Below are positions 29,102 to 35,941 of a DNA stretch of 39,275 nt, in pieces (within the stretch, counting starts at the first letter, position 1; each line of letters starts with the position of its first letter). The stretch covers positions 1 through 39,275 of the forward strand of contig SHVL01000023.1 in assembly GCA_009694305.1 (NCBI GenBank), written 5' to 3'. The position numbers and the translations under genes are program-made. The notes under the pieces were generated by a model. It saw only the letters and a program-made list of their open reading frames with translations, did not search any database and was not told where the DNA came from. The stretch is from Thermoleophilia bacterium. Lineage in GTDB: Bacteria > Actinomycetota > Thermoleophilia > Gaiellales > Gaiellaceae.

Positions 29102-30409
29102 ATGGCGTCTTCCCTGCGCACGCTTCCGTCGGTTGACCGCCTGCTCGCCGACCCGCGACTCGCGAGTCTGGCGCGCGCGCCGGTCGTCGCGGCTGTTCGG
29201 GTGACGCTCGAGCGCGCGCGCCTTGCGATCAGGGACGGCCGTGACCCGGGCGACCTCGTCGAGGCGACGCTCGCAGAGGTCGCGGCGGCCGCGCGCCCCT
29301 CGTTGCGGCGCGTCCTCAACGCGAGTGGAGTCCTGATCCACACCAATCTCGGGCGCGCCCCCCTCGCACGGTCAGCGCTCGACCGCGTCGTCGAGGTGGG
29401 CGGCAGCTACTCGAACCTCGAGTACGACCTCGACGCGGGCGCCCGCGGCTCGCGCCAGGATCATCTCACGGCACTGCTGCGCCAGATCATCGGTGGGGAG
29501 GCGTCGCTCGTCGTCAACAACAACGCTGCTGCCGTGATGCTTGCCCTCGCCGCGCTTGCCGAGGGCCGCGAGGTGCTCGTCTCGCGTGGCGAGCTGATCG
29601 AGATCGGCGACGGTTTCCGGATTCCCGACGTGCTGGCGCGCTCGGGTGCACGGCTCGTCGAGGTCGGGACGACGAACCGCACCCGTGCCGCCGACTACGA
29701 GCGTGCGATCGGCCCGGACACGGCACTCATTCTCCGCGTCCACCAGGCGAACTTCCGCGTTGTCGGTTTCACCGAGCAGCCGTCGCTCGGCGAACTGGCG
29801 GCGATTGCGAGGAGCGCCGGACTGCCGCTCGTGGACGATCTCGGCTCGGGAGCGCTGTCTGCGATCGGCGACGAGTCCACCGCGGCCGCGAGCCTTGCCG
29901 CCGGAACCGATCTCGTGTGCTTCTCGGGCGACAAGCTGCTCGGTGGCCCGCAGGCCGGGATTCTCGTCGGGCGCGCAGACCTGATCGAGCGCCTGCGCCG
30001 TCATCCGCTGCAACGCGCACTACGGGCCGACAAGCTGACTCTCGCGGCGCTCGAAGGAACGCTCGCCCTCGCCCTCGATCCTGCCCGTGCGCGCGCCGAG
30101 ATCCCGGTGCTGCGAATGCTTGACGAGCCGGTCGCGGCGGTGCGGGCACGGGCGGAGCGGCTCGCGGTGCTCGTCGGCGGCGAGGTCGAGGAGACGGTTG
30201 CGCGTGCCGGGGGCGGTGCGCTGCCGCTCGCCGAGCTACCGAGCTTTGCCTGTGCGATCGAGGAGGAGTTGTTCGACGCGCTGCGGGCCGGCGAGCCGCC
30301 GGTTGTCGGAATCGTTCGTGACGGCCGTCTGCTCCTCGACGTGCGCGCACTCGCCGAGAGCGAGGTGGACGAGGTGGCAGAGGCGGTTGCGGCGGCCCGG
30401 GCGCGATGA
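29102..30409 (+). CDS. selA: SelA, L-seryl-tRNA(Sec) selenium transferase
   Basis: A 435-residue PLP enzyme converting seryl-tRNA(Sec) to selenocysteyl-tRNA(Sec) with selenophosphate. The N-terminal helical domain has LPSVDRLLADPRL, then NASGVLIHTNLGRAPL. The core has VNNNAAAVMLAL, the strand LVDDLGSG, and K278 in FSGDKLLGGPQAG as the Schiff-base lysine. Full length for the family. A TACACT -10 (29090-29095) lies 6 bases before the ATG. The stop overlaps the start of an HpcH/HpaI aldolase, after which selB follows, so all three are co-translated. Presence of selB and selC nearby makes this a bona fide selenocysteine system, not an orphan paralogue. Confidence 0.97.
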   Translation: MASSLRTLPSVDRLLADPRLASLARAPVVAAVRVTLERARLAIRDGRDPGDLVEATLAEVAAAARPSLRRVLNASGVLIHTNLGRAPLARSALDRVVEVGGSYSNLEYDLDAGARGSRQDHLTALLRQIIGGEASLVVNNNAAAVMLALAALAEGREVLVSRGELIEIGDGFRIPDVLARSGARLVEVGTTNRTRAADYERAIGPDTALILRVHQANFRVVGFTEQPSLGELAAIARSAGLPLVDDLGSGALSAIGDESTAAASLAAGTDLVCFSGDKLLGGPQAGILVGRADLIERLRRHPLQRALRADKLTLAALEGTLALALDPARARAEIPVLRMLDEPVAAVRARAERLAVLVGGEVEETVARAGGGALPLAELPSFACAIEEELFDALRAGEPPVVGIVRDGRLLLDVRALAESEVDEVAEAVAAARAR

Positions 30410-31155
30410 GCGGGGAGGCCCTGGCGGCCCGGATCCGTGCGGGTGAGACGCTCCTCGGCGCGTGGTGCTCGTTGCCGGGCTCGGGCGCAGCCGGGTTTCT
30501 TGCTGCCGGTGGTGTGGACTACGTCGTCTGCGACCTGCAGCACGGTCTCGTCTCCGAGGCAGACCTGCCGACGTTGTTTCCCGCCATCGAGGTGCGTGGT
30601 GCGGCTCCCGTCGTGCGGTTGCTCGCGAACGACCCGGCTGCAATCGGCCGGGCGCTCGACCTCGGTGCGCACGGCATCGTCGTCCCGAACGTCAACTCCG
30701 CCGAGGAGGCCGGGAGCGCCGTGGGTGCAACGCGCTACCCGCCGCACGGCACGCGCGGGTTCGGGCCTATCCTCGGCGCGCGCACCCGTGGTGGAGATGC
30801 ACTCGACGACATCGCGGTGATCGTGCAGATCGAATCCGCTGCAGCCGTGGAATGCGTCGAGGACATCGCGCGGGTCGAAGGAGTCACCGCGCTCTACGTC
30901 GGCCCATGGGATCTCTCGGTCTCACTCGGCGTGCCGGTGCCGCCCGACCTCGACGGCGTGGTGCTTGCCTCGGCGATTGCACGTGTCCGTGGAGCCGCTG
31001 ACGCAGCGGGGCTTCCCGCGGGCGTGCACACGATCCGCGCGGCCAGTGCGGTTCCTCTTGCCGCTTCGGGATGGCGTCTCGTGAACGTCGCCGACGACGT
31101 GACGTTGATGCGCGACGGCGTCGCCGCCGGCGTCGAGCTTCTTCGTCCCTCCTGA
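30406..31155 (+). CDS. HpcH/HpaI-family aldolase between selA and selB
   Basis: A 249-residue TIM-barrel class II pyruvate aldolase. Key residues are D and H in CDLQHG, R in VVRLLANDP, metal-ligand E in VQIESAAAVE and D in GPWDLSVSLG, all present. The family cleaves or forms 4-hydroxy-2-oxo acids such as 2-dehydro-3-deoxyglucarate. It is tightly embedded: its ATG overlaps the selA stop as ATGA, and selB starts 1 base after its stop. No known step of selenocysteine synthesis needs an aldolase, so its presence is either a passenger or points to an unknown link. Confidence 0.92.
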   Translation: MSGEALAARIRAGETLLGAWCSLPGSGAAGFLAAGGVDYVVCDLQHGLVSEADLPTLFPAIEVRGAAPVVRLLANDPAAIGRALDLGAHGIVVPNVNSAEEAGSAVGATRYPPHGTRGFGPILGARTRGGDALDDIAVIVQIESAAAVECVEDIARVEGVTALYVGPWDLSVSLGVPVPPDLDGVVLASAIARVRGAADAAGLPAGVHTIRAASAVPLAASGWRLVNVADDVTLMRDGVAAGVELLRPS

Positions 31156-31156
31156 G

Positions 31157-32893
31157 ATGGCGTTGACCGTCGGCACGGCCGGCCACATCGATCACGGCAA
31201 GACATGGCTCGTACGGGCGCTGACCGGCAAGGACACGGACCGTCTGCCCGAGGAGCAGCGACGCGGGATCTCGATCGACCTCGGCTACGCGCCGCTCGAG
31301 CTGCCAGACGGCAGACGGCTCTCGCTCATCGACGTTCCGGGCCACGAGCGTTTCGTGCGCACGATGGTGGCGGGCGCGACCGGGATCGACCTGTTCCTGC
31401 TCGTGATCGACGCGGCCGAAGGCGCCCGCCCCCAGACCCTCGAGCATCTTGGGATCCTGCGGCTGCTCGGCGTCGATCGGGGTGTTGTCGCAGTGACCAA
31501 GGCCGACCTCGTGGACGAGGAGACGCTCGAAATCGCCGTCGAGGAGGCGAGCGAGCTCGTCCCGGGGGCGGAGGTCGTCGCCGTCAGCGCGAGGACGGGG
31601 GTCGGGCTGGACGACCTGCGAGCCGCCCTGGCGCGCGCAGCCGACAGCGTGGTGGCCCGAGACGCAAGTGGTGCAACCCGACTGTACGTCGATCGCGTGT
31701 TCACCCTGCGGGGCATCGGCACGGTCGTCACGGGGACGCTCTGGTCGGGGACGATCGTCGAGGGCGACACGCTGCATGTCGCTCCGCGTGGGGGCGAGGT
31801 CAGAGTGCGATCCGTCCAGGTGCACGACACGTCCGTGCAGAGCGCAACCGCAGGCGAGCGTGTCGCGCTCGGCCTTCCGGGCATCGAGAGGAGCGAGCTA
31901 CACCGGGGCGATGCTCTCGTGGCGCCGCATGCCTACCCCGTCTCCTACCGGCTCGATGTCGAGCTCGAGGAGCTGACCCCGATCGACAACGGCGCGCGTG
32001 TGTCGGTGCATCACGGCACGTCGCGTATCGCCGCCAGGGTGGCCCGGGTCGGCGGGCGGTTGGCACAGTTACGGCTCGAGGCACCGGTTGTTGCGGCGCG
32101 GGGCGATCGCATCGTCCTGCGGGGGGAGACGACGCTCGGCGGCGCAATCGTGCTCGATCCTGCTCCACCGCGACGGCTCGAGGCCGAACGGCTCGAGCTC
32201 CTCGAGCAGGGTGACCCGGTGTCGATCGTCGCTGCGACGGTGACTGCGCCCGTCCTCGTCGAGTCGCTCGCGGCTCGCGGGCTGCTCTCGCCCGCAGAGC
32301 TCGAGGAAGGGCTCGCGGCAGTGATCCAGGCAGGCGGTTGGGCGTTCTCACGGGAGTGGCTCGACGAGACGAGCGATGTCGTCGCGGAGCGACTGCGTGT
32401 GCGGGCGGTCGCGTCGCCACTCGAGCCGGGACTTGCCGTGGCCGAACTGCTTCCTGCGGAGCCATGGGCGGCGGTAGTGCTGCCGCTCTTGCCGGTCGAG
32501 CGGCGCGGCGGGATCGCGTATCTCCCGGGCGTAGCGGCCTCGCTCGGCGCGCGCGCGGAGGCGGCCGAGGCACTCAGGGGCGAGCTCGAGGCGAGTGGCC
32601 TCGCGGCGGTGAAACCGGACGATGCCGGGCTGGCACGATTTCTGGAGGCCGAGGGCGTTCTTGTCCGGCTCGGCGACGGTTTCGTCGTCTCCACCGCGGC
32701 CTACGAGCGCGCACGCGAGCTGGTTGTGACCGAATGCCGGGCGACGGGTGAGATCGTCCTCGCGCGCTTTCGTGATCTTGCGGGCGTCGGTCGTCGCGAC
32801 GCGCAACTGCTGCTCGAGCGGCTCGACCAGGACGGGGTCACACGTCGCCTCGGCGACCGTCGTGTGCTCCGCAGAGCGGGGCTTGAAGGGTAG
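31157..32893 (+). CDS. selB: SelB, selenocysteine-specific elongation factor
   Basis: A 578-residue GTPase. G1 is GHIDHGKT (residues 9-16), the effector block RRGISIDLG, G3 DVPGHE (59-64) and G4 TKAD (114-117). Domains II and III (to about 340) include VFTLRGIGTVVTGTL, and the C-terminal 200 residues are the winged-helix domain IV, ending ARFRDLAGVGRRDAQLLLE, which binds the SECIS hairpin. SelB brings Sec-tRNA(Sec) to UGA codons followed by a SECIS. Length is normal. It is the last gene of the selA operon, converging on a selenoprotein gene that uses it. Confidence 0.97.
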   Translation: MALTVGTAGHIDHGKTWLVRALTGKDTDRLPEEQRRGISIDLGYAPLELPDGRRLSLIDVPGHERFVRTMVAGATGIDLFLLVIDAAEGARPQTLEHLGILRLLGVDRGVVAVTKADLVDEETLEIAVEEASELVPGAEVVAVSARTGVGLDDLRAALARAADSVVARDASGATRLYVDRVFTLRGIGTVVTGTLWSGTIVEGDTLHVAPRGGEVRVRSVQVHDTSVQSATAGERVALGLPGIERSELHRGDALVAPHAYPVSYRLDVELEELTPIDNGARVSVHHGTSRIAARVARVGGRLAQLRLEAPVVAARGDRIVLRGETTLGGAIVLDPAPPRRLEAERLELLEQGDPVSIVAATVTAPVLVESLAARGLLSPAELEEGLAAVIQAGGWAFSREWLDETSDVVAERLRVRAVASPLEPGLAVAELLPAEPWAAVVLPLLPVERRGGIAYLPGVAASLGARAEAAEALRGELEASGLAAVKPDDAGLARFLEAEGVLVRLGDGFVVSTAAYERARELVVTECRATGEIVLARFRDLAGVGRRDAQLLLERLDQDGVTRRLGDRRVLRRAGLEG

Positions 32894-33005: not shown

Positions 33006-33025
33006 GGGCGGGACAGGTCCCGCCC
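33006..33025. terminator. GC-rich hairpin between selB and the selenoprotein gene
   Basis: Perfect 9-bp inverted repeat GGGCGGGAC-AG-GTCCCGCCC between two convergent stops (32893 and 33082). Likely bidirectional terminator; no U-tract. A further imperfect hairpin with arms CCATCCG/CGGATGG lies at 32961-32991. Confidence 0.5.
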
Positions 33026-33081: not shown

Positions 33082-33636
33082 CTACGTTCCCCGCCCGTCC
33101 CACCCGGGTTCGTTCTCGACCCCGACACCCTCGGCGACACGGTTGATGTAGTTGAAGTACGAAATCACCTGGATTGCATCGTGGATCGCCGTGTCATCCC
33201 AGCCGTGGGCTCTGAGTGCGTCAGCGTCTGCGAGCCCGACCGTCGCCGGAGAGTCGGTCAGCTTGACGGCGTAGTCGCACAGGGCACGAATCCGCGGCTC
33301 GAGGTCGGCCTTGCCGTAGTCGTGCGCCGCATGTCGCGCGAGCTCCTCGTCTGCGCCCTCTGCACGGAGGTCGTCTGCGTGCGATGTCGTTCAGTAATGG
33401 CAGGCGTTGTGGCGCGACGTGACCGTGGCGAGGAGTTCCCGCTCTGCCCGGGTCAGGGCCGAGGGGCCGAACATGATCGCCTTGTACATCTCCATGGAGG
33501 CGTGGAGCACCTCGGGGCGAAGGCTCATCGCCTTGACGATGTTGAAGATCTTCCCGGCACGACCGACCGCAGCGTCGTACTCGGAGGCGAGGAGCCCGGT
33601 CGCTTCGTCCGGCTCCGTCAGGCGAATGTGCGGCAC
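33082..33636 (-). CDS. Selenoprotein: AhpD/CMD-family peroxidase with in-frame UGA (Sec82)
   Basis: From GTG 33636 an 81-codon frame runs to TGA at 33393-33391, then continues in the same frame for 102 more codons to TAG at 33084-33082. The read-through protein has 184 residues and matches the peroxidase-related branch of the carboxymuconolactone decarboxylase/AhpD family before the TGA (LTRAERELLATVTSRHNACHY) only in short quoted parts such as TRAERELLATV and RHNACHY, and after it (TTSHADDLRAEG, LCDYAVKLTDSPATVG, VISYFNYINRVAEGVGVE). It keeps the AhpD motif EX11CX2CX3H as E67, C79, U82, H86, with Sec in place of the second, peroxidatic cysteine. A SECIS-like hairpin follows the UGA, and selA, selB and selC flank it. 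It should reduce peroxides through a Sec-Cys pair. TAGGAT 6 bases before the GTG marks a leaderless start. Confidence 0.9.
33362..33382 (-). promoter_or_regulatory. Candidate bacterial SECIS hairpin
   Basis: Starting 9 bases after the UGA on the minus strand: 5-bp stem GCACG/CGUGC, a C-C mismatch, 2 bp AG/CU and a pentaloop ACGAC centred 19 bases after the UGA. Distance and small G-containing apical loop fit bacterial SECIS elements bound by SelB domain IV. It lies inside the coding sequence, as bacterial SECIS do. Confidence 0.7.
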
Positions 33637-34189: not shown

Positions 34190-34588
34190 CTAGGCCGAGA
34201 TCACGCGTTGGACGGCGATGTAGTGCGTCGTCTTTGCGGCTGCGCCCCGGCCTGACCTCACCGGTGCGACGCGCCAGTGCATGATGAACGGGCTCCCGTC
34301 GGCGCGGTAGTTGATCGTGCGACCTTCGAACCGGCGTCCGGCCGCCAGGTCTGTGATCAGCTGCTTGATCGTTCCCTTGTCCGTGGCGGCACCTTGCAGA
34401 AATTTAGGGTCGCGGCCGATCACGTCCTTCGCCTTGTACCCGGTCAGCTTCTCGAACGACTTGTTGACGTAGACGATCTTGTTGGTGGTACCGGCAGTCG
34501 TGATCATCACCGAGTCGAAACTCTGGTCGGCGATCGTCGCGAAGCCACTTTCGAGCTCAGTGAGCGCATGCTGTTTTGTTGATGCCAT
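34190..34588 (-). CDS. Single PAS/LOV-like domain protein lacking the photoactive cysteine
   Basis: A 132-residue protein that is essentially one PAS domain. NKIVYVNKSFEKLTGY is the PAS core, GRDPKFLQGAATDKGTI aligns with the LOV GRNCRFLQG block, and INYRADGSPFIMHWRVAPV plus HYIAVQRVIS match LOV strands. The LOV adduct-forming Cys is Pro61 here, so a canonical photocycle is impossible; it may still bind flavin or act as an ordinary PAS sensor. There is no output domain. The ATG at 34588 follows GAGG by about 9 bases, which decides against a longer frame to 34666. Confidence 0.82.
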   Translation of the reverse strand: MASTKQHALTELESGFATIADQSFDSVMITTAGTTNKIVYVNKSFEKLTGYKAKDVIGRDPKFLQGAATDKGTIKQLITDLAAGRRFEGRTINYRADGSPFIMHWRVAPVRSGRGAAAKTTHYIAVQRVISA

Positions 34589-34725
34589 ACGTTTTCCTCT
34601 CTCGATACATTGGCAGCAATCGAAGGTACCGATTCCCCTCGGGGCTGCGTCTGCCCTACCAATCATGACTGGCGGGATCCGCTCGCCTCCTACCGACCTG
34701 CGTCTCTAGCCCCCCTGCCCGTCGC

Positions 34726-34738: not shown

Positions 34739-34831
34739 GGAGCGGCACGGGCCCGGTGGCCCAGCGGGTCTTCAAAACCTGTGCGGTGTGGTAACCCCAC
34801 GCTCGGTCGGTTCGACTCCGGCGCCGCTCCG
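34739..34831 (+). tRNA. selC: tRNA-Sec (anticodon UCA)
   Basis: A 93-base selenocysteine tRNA. The acceptor stem has the diagnostic 8 bp: GGAGCGGC with GCCGCTCC, discriminator G. The D arm is GGGCC-CGGT-GGCCC with a 4-base loop, as in other tRNA-Sec. Anticodon stem CGGGT/ACCTG encloses CTTCAAA, anticodon TCA at 34772-34774. A long variable arm and T-arm GTCGG-TTCGACT-CCGGC follow. CCA is not encoded. It decodes UGA with SelB, and a client UGA lies 1.4 kb away. Confidence 0.96.
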
Positions 34832-34985: not shown

Positions 34986-35078
34986 ATGGCGTCGCCGCTA
35001 AGGAGTTCCTGCGTCTGTCCCCTTCACGGAGTCGGCGGCGGCACAACGACGGGGGAGCGCGCATGGCCGGACGGGTGA
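34986..35078 (+). CDS. Possible 30-codon leaderless upstream ORF
   Basis: ATG at 34986 lies 5 bases after TATGGT (34975-34980). The 30-codon frame has two cysteines close together (SSCVCPLHG) and stops at TGA 35076-35078, overlapping the start of the DsbA-like gene by 16 bases. Such an arrangement can couple or attenuate translation of the next gene. Weak evidence: start pattern and overlap only. Confidence 0.25.
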   Translation: MASPLRSSCVCPLHGVGGGTTTGERAWPDG

Positions 35079-35941
35079 AGGCGACTCTGTACAGCGATGC
35101 CGGCTGCCCGTGGGGCTATTCGGCGGATCCTGCTCTCCGGGTGCTCGAGTGGCGCTACGGGGCGCAACTCGACTGGCGGCTCGTGCTGATCGGGCTGACC
35201 GAGCACGCCCAGCAATACGTTGACCGCGGCTACACGCCGCTTGGGTCGGCCGAGGGGTACGTCCGGCGGTATCGCCCGTACGGGATGCCGTTCGCGCCAG
35301 AGCCTCGCGCGCGGGTCATGGGTACGGGGCGGGCCTGTAGAGCGGTTGTCGCGGCGCGCCTGCAGGAGCCGGGCGCGGAGTGGGCGACGTTCCGTGCGCT
35401 CCAGTTCGCCTGGTTCACGACGACGCTGCTGCTCGACGAGGACGACGGCATCGCCCGGGCGCTTGCAGGCGTCCCGGGGCTCGACGTGGACGCGGTGATC
35501 GCTGCGATCGAGACGCCCGAGGTCGAGGAGGCCTATCAGCGCGACCACGCCGAGGCGCGCACTGCGGCCGGCTCACCGCCCGAGCTGCAGCACAAGACGG
35601 CCACCACCGACGGCCCCGTCCGCTTCACTGCGCCCTCCATCGTCTTCGAGCACGCGGGCCGGACGCTCGTGGCCGGCGGCTGGCAGACGATCGAGGCCTA
35701 CGACGTGCTCGTCGCAAACCTGATTCCCGACGGGGAGCGCCGTGGCGTGCCCGACGACCCGTTCGAGTTGCTCGAGTACTTCCCGGGTGGCCTGACCACG
35801 CAGGAGGTCGCGCAGCTGCTGACGCGGGGCAACGACGCTGCCGACCGCCCCGGGGCCGAGGCCGCGATGCTGGGCCTCGTGGCGTCAGGGCTGGCGGTGC
35901 GCACCCGGCTCGGCGACGACGCACTCTGGGTGGTGGCGTAG
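35063..35941 (+). CDS. DsbA/FrnE-like thioredoxin-fold protein with C-terminal extension
   Basis: A 292-residue protein. The N-terminus KATLYSDAGCPWGYSADPALRVL (key part CPWGYS) is the FrnE/2-hydroxychromene-2-carboxylate isomerase-type DsbA fold, in which only the first cysteine of the CxxC is kept. A helical insertion (about 85-150) follows, and the cis-proline loop FTAPSIVFEHAGR lies near residue 190. Residues 225-292 resemble a small winged helix (TTQEVAQLLTRGNDAA). No signal peptide, so it is cytoplasmic. It may be a glutathione-analogue-dependent isomerase or thiol oxidoreductase. RBS GGGGGAG precedes the ATG. Confidence 0.82.
   Translation: MAGRVKATLYSDAGCPWGYSADPALRVLEWRYGAQLDWRLVLIGLTEHAQQYVDRGYTPLGSAEGYVRRYRPYGMPFAPEPRARVMGTGRACRAVVAARLQEPGAEWATFRALQFAWFTTTLLLDEDDGIARALAGVPGLDVDAVIAAIETPEVEEAYQRDHAEARTAAGSPPELQHKTATTDGPVRFTAPSIVFEHAGRTLVAGGWQTIEAYDVLVANLIPDGERRGVPDDPFELLEYFPGGLTTQEVAQLLTRGNDAADRPGAEAAMLGLVASGLAVRTRLGDDALWVVA

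Follow-up and report, generated by a model that had tools for sequence, protein, structure and literature searches.

A predicted AhpD-like selenoprotein of a Thermoleophilia bacterium, with selenocysteine at an in-frame UGA and a covarying SECIS hairpin

The window, i.e. the whole stretch of 39,275 nucleotides that was analysed, belongs to the genome of a Thermoleophilia bacterium (Actinomycetota), a placement with which its named relatives agree, and carries an AhpD-like gene among genes for selenocysteine (Sec) incorporation (Table 1). The AhpD-like gene and selB are convergent, an arrangement that at least four relatives (G060, G057, G056 and G053) share with the window. A gene for a HpaI/GarL-type aldolase (30406–31155, plus strand) lies between selA and selB and overlaps the end of selA by four bases. 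Directly after selC, a DsbA-like protein is encoded (35063–35941, plus strand), which reads CPWG where its relatives presumably have CPWC in most cases. The PAS protein encoded at 34190–34666 (minus strand) contains a LOV-like GRDPKFLQG stretch, in which Pro occupies what we take to be the position of the photoactive Cys of LOV domains (GRNCRFLQ). Between selB and the AhpD-like gene, we also observed the palindromic element GGCGGGACCTGTCCCGCC (33007–33024), present in 15 exact copies in the genome vs none for the reversed control; it is a candidate REP-like or terminator element.

Table 1. Coordinates of the Sec-related features in the window.
Feature	Position	Strand	Details
selA, L-seryl-tRNA(Sec) selenium transferase	29102..30409	+	TIGR00474, 510.7 bits, above the NCBIfam cut-off
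selB, Sec-specific elongation factor	31157..32893	+	TIGR00475, 361.7 bits, above the NCBIfam cut-off
AhpD-like (TIGR01926) gene, predicted selenoprotein	33082..33636	-	GTG start, 184 residues, Sec at codon 82, TAG stop
Predicted SECIS apical hairpin, GACCUC-[CGUGCA]-GAGGGC	33355..33372	-	+22..+39 from the U of UGA; from constraint, covariation and folds
In-frame TGA, predicted Sec82, second redox position of C-H-Y-U	33391..33393	-	shared with orthologues and homologues
selC, tRNA-Sec, anticodon TCA	34739..34831	+	ARAGORN and Rfam, 62.5 bits vs cut-off 47

The reading frame starts at GTG 33636, meets TGA at 33393–33391 and then stays open for 102 codons up to TAG 33084–33082. The TIGR01926 model (NCBIfam, peroxidase-related enzyme) spans the TGA, matching residues 5–177 of the read-through protein with 151.5 bits (cut-off 81.8), and the Pfam CMD profile scored 42.6 (cut-off 23). 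The active site of AhpD has the spacing E-X11-C-X2-C-X3-H. In the read-through protein, the corresponding residues are E67, C79, U82 and H86, which gives E-X11-C-X2-U-X3-H. The earlier note had claimed this frame, the location of the TGA at the second Cys of the AhpD motif, and family-like sequence on both of its sides; the frame was reproduced exactly, the residues were placed as it had described, and the profile match crosses the TGA. In an alignment of 27 sequences, the columns of R66, E67, C79, C/U82 and H86 were invariant. The AlphaFold2 model, with Cys in place of Sec, had a mean pLDDT of 94.3. Its best solved fold matches were "peroxidase-related" proteins with the AhpD core (TM-score about 0.84–0.89), which were also the closest in sequence. 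When the window was scanned for further read-through frames with CxxU or UxxC, none was convincing by eye.

Among the 129 genomes of the order (Thermoleophilia) that we searched, 16 further orthologues were found, 62–83% identical, each carrying TGA at the matching codon and no other stop within the conserved domain; for orthologue L011, translation was continued through a further TGA at codon 180, its likely natural stop. Thus, the window included, TGA occupies exactly this codon in 17/17 orthologues of the order, where Cys homologues have their catalytic Cys. A Cys paralogue encoded in the same genome reads CRYC. An in-frame UGA that orthologues share and that lines up with Cys in homologues is the pattern by which bacterial selenoproteins are recognised, and the alignment proposed earlier, with U expected in close relatives and Cys elsewhere, came out in this way. 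Downstream of the TGA and the SECIS stretch, comparison of the window with nine orthologues gave dN of 0.11–0.30 vs dS of 0.71–1.66, and the levels before the TGA were similar. The frame downstream of the TGA is under purifying selection. The window alone offers a stop codon within a family match, as would be expected if the TGA were accidental (a pseudogene, a nonsense mutation or an assembly error) and the product only an 81-residue fragment, but TGA recurs at this codon in the 16 orthologues that other genomes encode and in homologues belonging to 13 phyla, and the selection on the downstream frame also argues against such an accident. The earlier argument that a nonsense mutation was unlikely to fall on this codon is thereby strengthened, as all orthologues share the TGA and conserve the protein that follows it.

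The earlier note identified no SECIS element, and the one described here is an addition to it. Across the orthologues and homologues, the predicted hairpin takes the general form GACCUC-[CG(U/G)GCN]-GAGGUC at +22..+39 from the UGA. The 17 orthologues showed no variation in the DNA at +21..+31, counted from the U of UGA; codon +8 (Leu) was CTC and codon +9 (Arg) was CGT in 17/17, CGT being a minority Arg codon in the remainder of the AhpD-like gene. Codon sharing above expectation amounted to 0.28 at codons 5–13 vs 0.06 elsewhere, a level that 0/100,000 resamplings reached, which is an optimistic figure because these codons were picked after the alignment had been inspected. Among 89 distinct sequences, which cover all of the phyla sampled, the six-pair core had 91% of its base-pair cells paired, vs 25–47% when it was slid by 1–3 nt. 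The same sequences held 32 double-sided compensatory cells, compared to a shuffle mean of 4.7, and 0/2000 shuffles were as high, with the reservation that kinship among the 89 sequences inflates compensatory counts. Alternative pairing stems were GAGUUG/CAACUC in Poribacteria and GAUCUC/GAGAUC in several others. Equally pairing but different stems in separate phyla would be hard to explain otherwise than by a conserved hairpin.

The SECIS loop has G at position 2, i.e. within its first two positions. This agrees with a figure in an earlier survey (PMC1088965), in which a guanosine is conserved in the apical loop of bacterial SECIS elements. In the clade of the window, the stem includes one A·G mismatch (Gly GGC in place of Val GTC), which is an A-U pair in other clades. 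Visual inspection ruled out GCACG/CGUGC, the stem first considered, since its pairing is broken in several orthologues. The window hairpin alone folded with −5.3 kcal/mol (z −0.55), not better than shuffles, and the minimum-energy fold of the 47 nt after the UGA was a different hairpin (z −0.07). Stability alone is therefore uninformative here, and the SECIS came from comparison. A local fold no better than shuffles would also suit an accidental TGA, but a covarying SECIS would not; because the TGA is shared and the SECIS covaries, the pseudogene reading is refuted in practice, and we assign a negligible probability to an accident of any of these kinds.

The earlier claim that selA, selB and selC stand beside the AhpD-like gene holds, all three being real by their profile and tRNA-Sec scores. 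Moreover, selD lies elsewhere in the genome (355 bits vs cut-off 125), so that selA, selB, selC and selD, the machinery on which a bacterial selenoprotein depends, are all encoded. The genome also encodes a formate-dehydrogenase-like molybdopterin protein (FdhA) with a TGA at NRTUHAPS (L117 1729–1731, genome contig C4), which we take to be the usual Sec site of FdhA. Since FdhA carries this TGA in addition to that of the AhpD-like gene, two or more proteins encoded in the genome very probably contain Sec. A hairpin is located downstream of the FdhA TGA, with its loop at GUCUGG (L117), and the Sec-type fdhA has a further copy of GGCGGGACCTGTCCCGCC ~1 kb upstream.

That the frame is open with TGA as a sense codon could also mean that UGA is reassigned or otherwise read through (an alternative code, or Cys or Trp suppression) and not read as Sec, yet this has hardly any chance of being correct: of the 30 main genes that we listed for the window, 20 end with TGA as an ordinary stop, so that the genetic code is not reassigned, tRNA-Sec, SelA, SelB and SelD are present, position 82 aligns with Cys and not with Trp, and a SECIS is present. 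The AhpD-like gene almost certainly encodes a selenoprotein with Sec inserted at the internal UGA of codon 82, a prediction that we make because of the TGA/Cys alignment of the orthologues, the covarying SECIS, the complete machinery and the presence of FdhA as another Sec-type protein. The same lines of evidence support the CxxU selenoprotein proposed in the earlier note.

A genome collection was scanned for homologues with an alignment as the query, and the best 80 loci were kept; a scan with a single protein as the query found no relatives. Position 82 was U in 77 of the best 80 loci and C in 3, a ratio biased by a query alignment made up largely of Sec sequences and by the retention of the most similar loci alone. 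The U-bearing loci among these 80 came from 13 phyla. Five of the 80 were apparently contigs already met in the order and were excluded from later counts. A tree of 106 sequences, which has uneven support and an arbitrary root, places the Cys rows in two groups among the Sec rows. A second group of AhpD-like genes containing UGA (L029–L031; CPYU/CYYU) fell inside a Cys clade of this tree, and their placement suggests that Sec and Cys may have been exchanged repeatedly. Tentatively, Sec could be the default of the subfamily in at least 13 phyla, with a near-invariant SECIS (GACCUC-CGNGCN-GAGGUC) dictating the conserved peptide DLRAE that lies after the active site, and the Cys enzymes could be later replacements, partly reversible because L029–L031 fall inside the Cys clade; we consider this model rather doubtful. 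In four genomes of one bacterial family (L020, L021, L022 and L023), the AhpD-like domain with CHYU continues in frame into a YjeF_N-like (NAD(P)HX epimerase-like) domain, with Pfam run on L020 and L023. A literature search joining selenoprotein, selenocysteine and YjeF gave no match.

The sequence itself shows the frame, where U lies, the orthologues, the SECIS and the machinery; from these we infer that Sec is incorporated, as well as the chemistry of catalysis, the substrate and the thiol partner. In the proposed mechanism, SelA and selenophosphate from SelD would yield Sec-tRNA(Sec), which SelB, bound to the mRNA SECIS hairpin 22–39 nt downstream, would deliver to the UGA at codon 82. In the protein, the catalytic roles of E67, C79, U82 and H86 are carried over from AhpD by homology. 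U82 would be the nucleophile that, helped by E67 and H86, attacks an oxidised substrate, for which a hydroperoxide is the likeliest candidate. C79 would then resolve the selenenic acid to a Cys-Sec selenenylsulfide, which a thiol partner would reduce.

A hydroperoxide is probably the main substrate, and peroxidase activity would be expected of the protein by analogy with AhpD. The earlier name, "AhpD-like peroxidase", is accurate in its first part, as shown by the TIGR01926 match and the AhpD-core fold; "peroxidase" reflects homology only, given that TIGR01926 is annotated "peroxidase-related" and the CMD fold houses other chemistries, such as that of the debrominase Bmp8. The main job of the Sec protein could accordingly differ from hydroperoxide reduction, e.g. 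as a thiol-disulfide adaptor or in Bmp8-like reductive dehalogenation. The family name, which goes no further than "peroxidase-related", leaves room for this, as does the CMD fold, a host of several chemistries with Bmp8 (6ohi, 6ohj) among the fold matches, but the closest solved structures and profiles are those of AhpD-core proteins, the E, C, C/U and H columns of the alignment do not vary, and Sec is typical of peroxidases. Such a different main function appears unlikely, and hydroperoxide reduction is the function that we favour.

A 2005 report described CxxU AhpD-like selenoproteins in the Sargasso Sea (27 sequences, COG2128; PMC1088965), and the GOS survey distinguished AhpD-like 1 (299; COG2128) and AhpD-like 2 (70) (PMC2398784). 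A 2026 review listed an "AhpD-like protein, TIGR01926, CxxU", with MCB9421940.1 as the representative, as "predicted with high confidence" and not verified (PMC13188914). As such selenoproteins of TIGR01926/COG2128 have been reported since 2005, the Thermoleophilia gene is a new member of an already known selenoprotein family and not a new family. It shares TIGR01926, CxxU and a SECIS downstream of the UGA with the published proteins (PMC1088965, PMC2398784, PMC13188914); its likeness to MCB9421940.1 is by family model and motif. Whereas the two surveys covered marine metagenomes (PMC1088965, PMC2398784), our gene is from a Thermoleophilia genome and is convergent with selB. A literature search on selenoproteins and Thermoleophilia found, by title and abstract, nothing on this selenoprotein class.

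Compared to the neighbouring models, NF041238 (AhpD_rel_CFYUT, alkylhydroperoxidase-related (seleno)protein) shares the CxYU-T motif, but the match was partial, with 69.6 bits vs a cut-off of 175 and only positions 174–337 of 357 covered. AhpD sensu stricto of the Mycobacterium tuberculosis type (TIGR00777; 20.5 bits vs cut-off 191.95) likewise has E-X11-C-X2-C-X3-H, but with Cys in place of Sec. The Cys peroxidase-related structures 2pfx, 3c1l, 6k40, 2oyo and 2prr are alike in fold and length (29–35% identity); 2pfx and 3c1l, aligned residue by residue, have Cys at the Sec position of the AhpD-like selenoprotein.

Automated annotation that takes the TGA as a stop would split the genes of such AhpD-like selenoproteins. 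The present gene adds a well-supported Sec enzyme in Thermoleophilia. For a family that has so far only been predicted, it comes with a comparative SECIS, in which two codons are fixed order-wide and the stem covaries across phyla. Both this SECIS and the range of phyla covered usefully extend what is known of the AhpD-like selenoprotein family.
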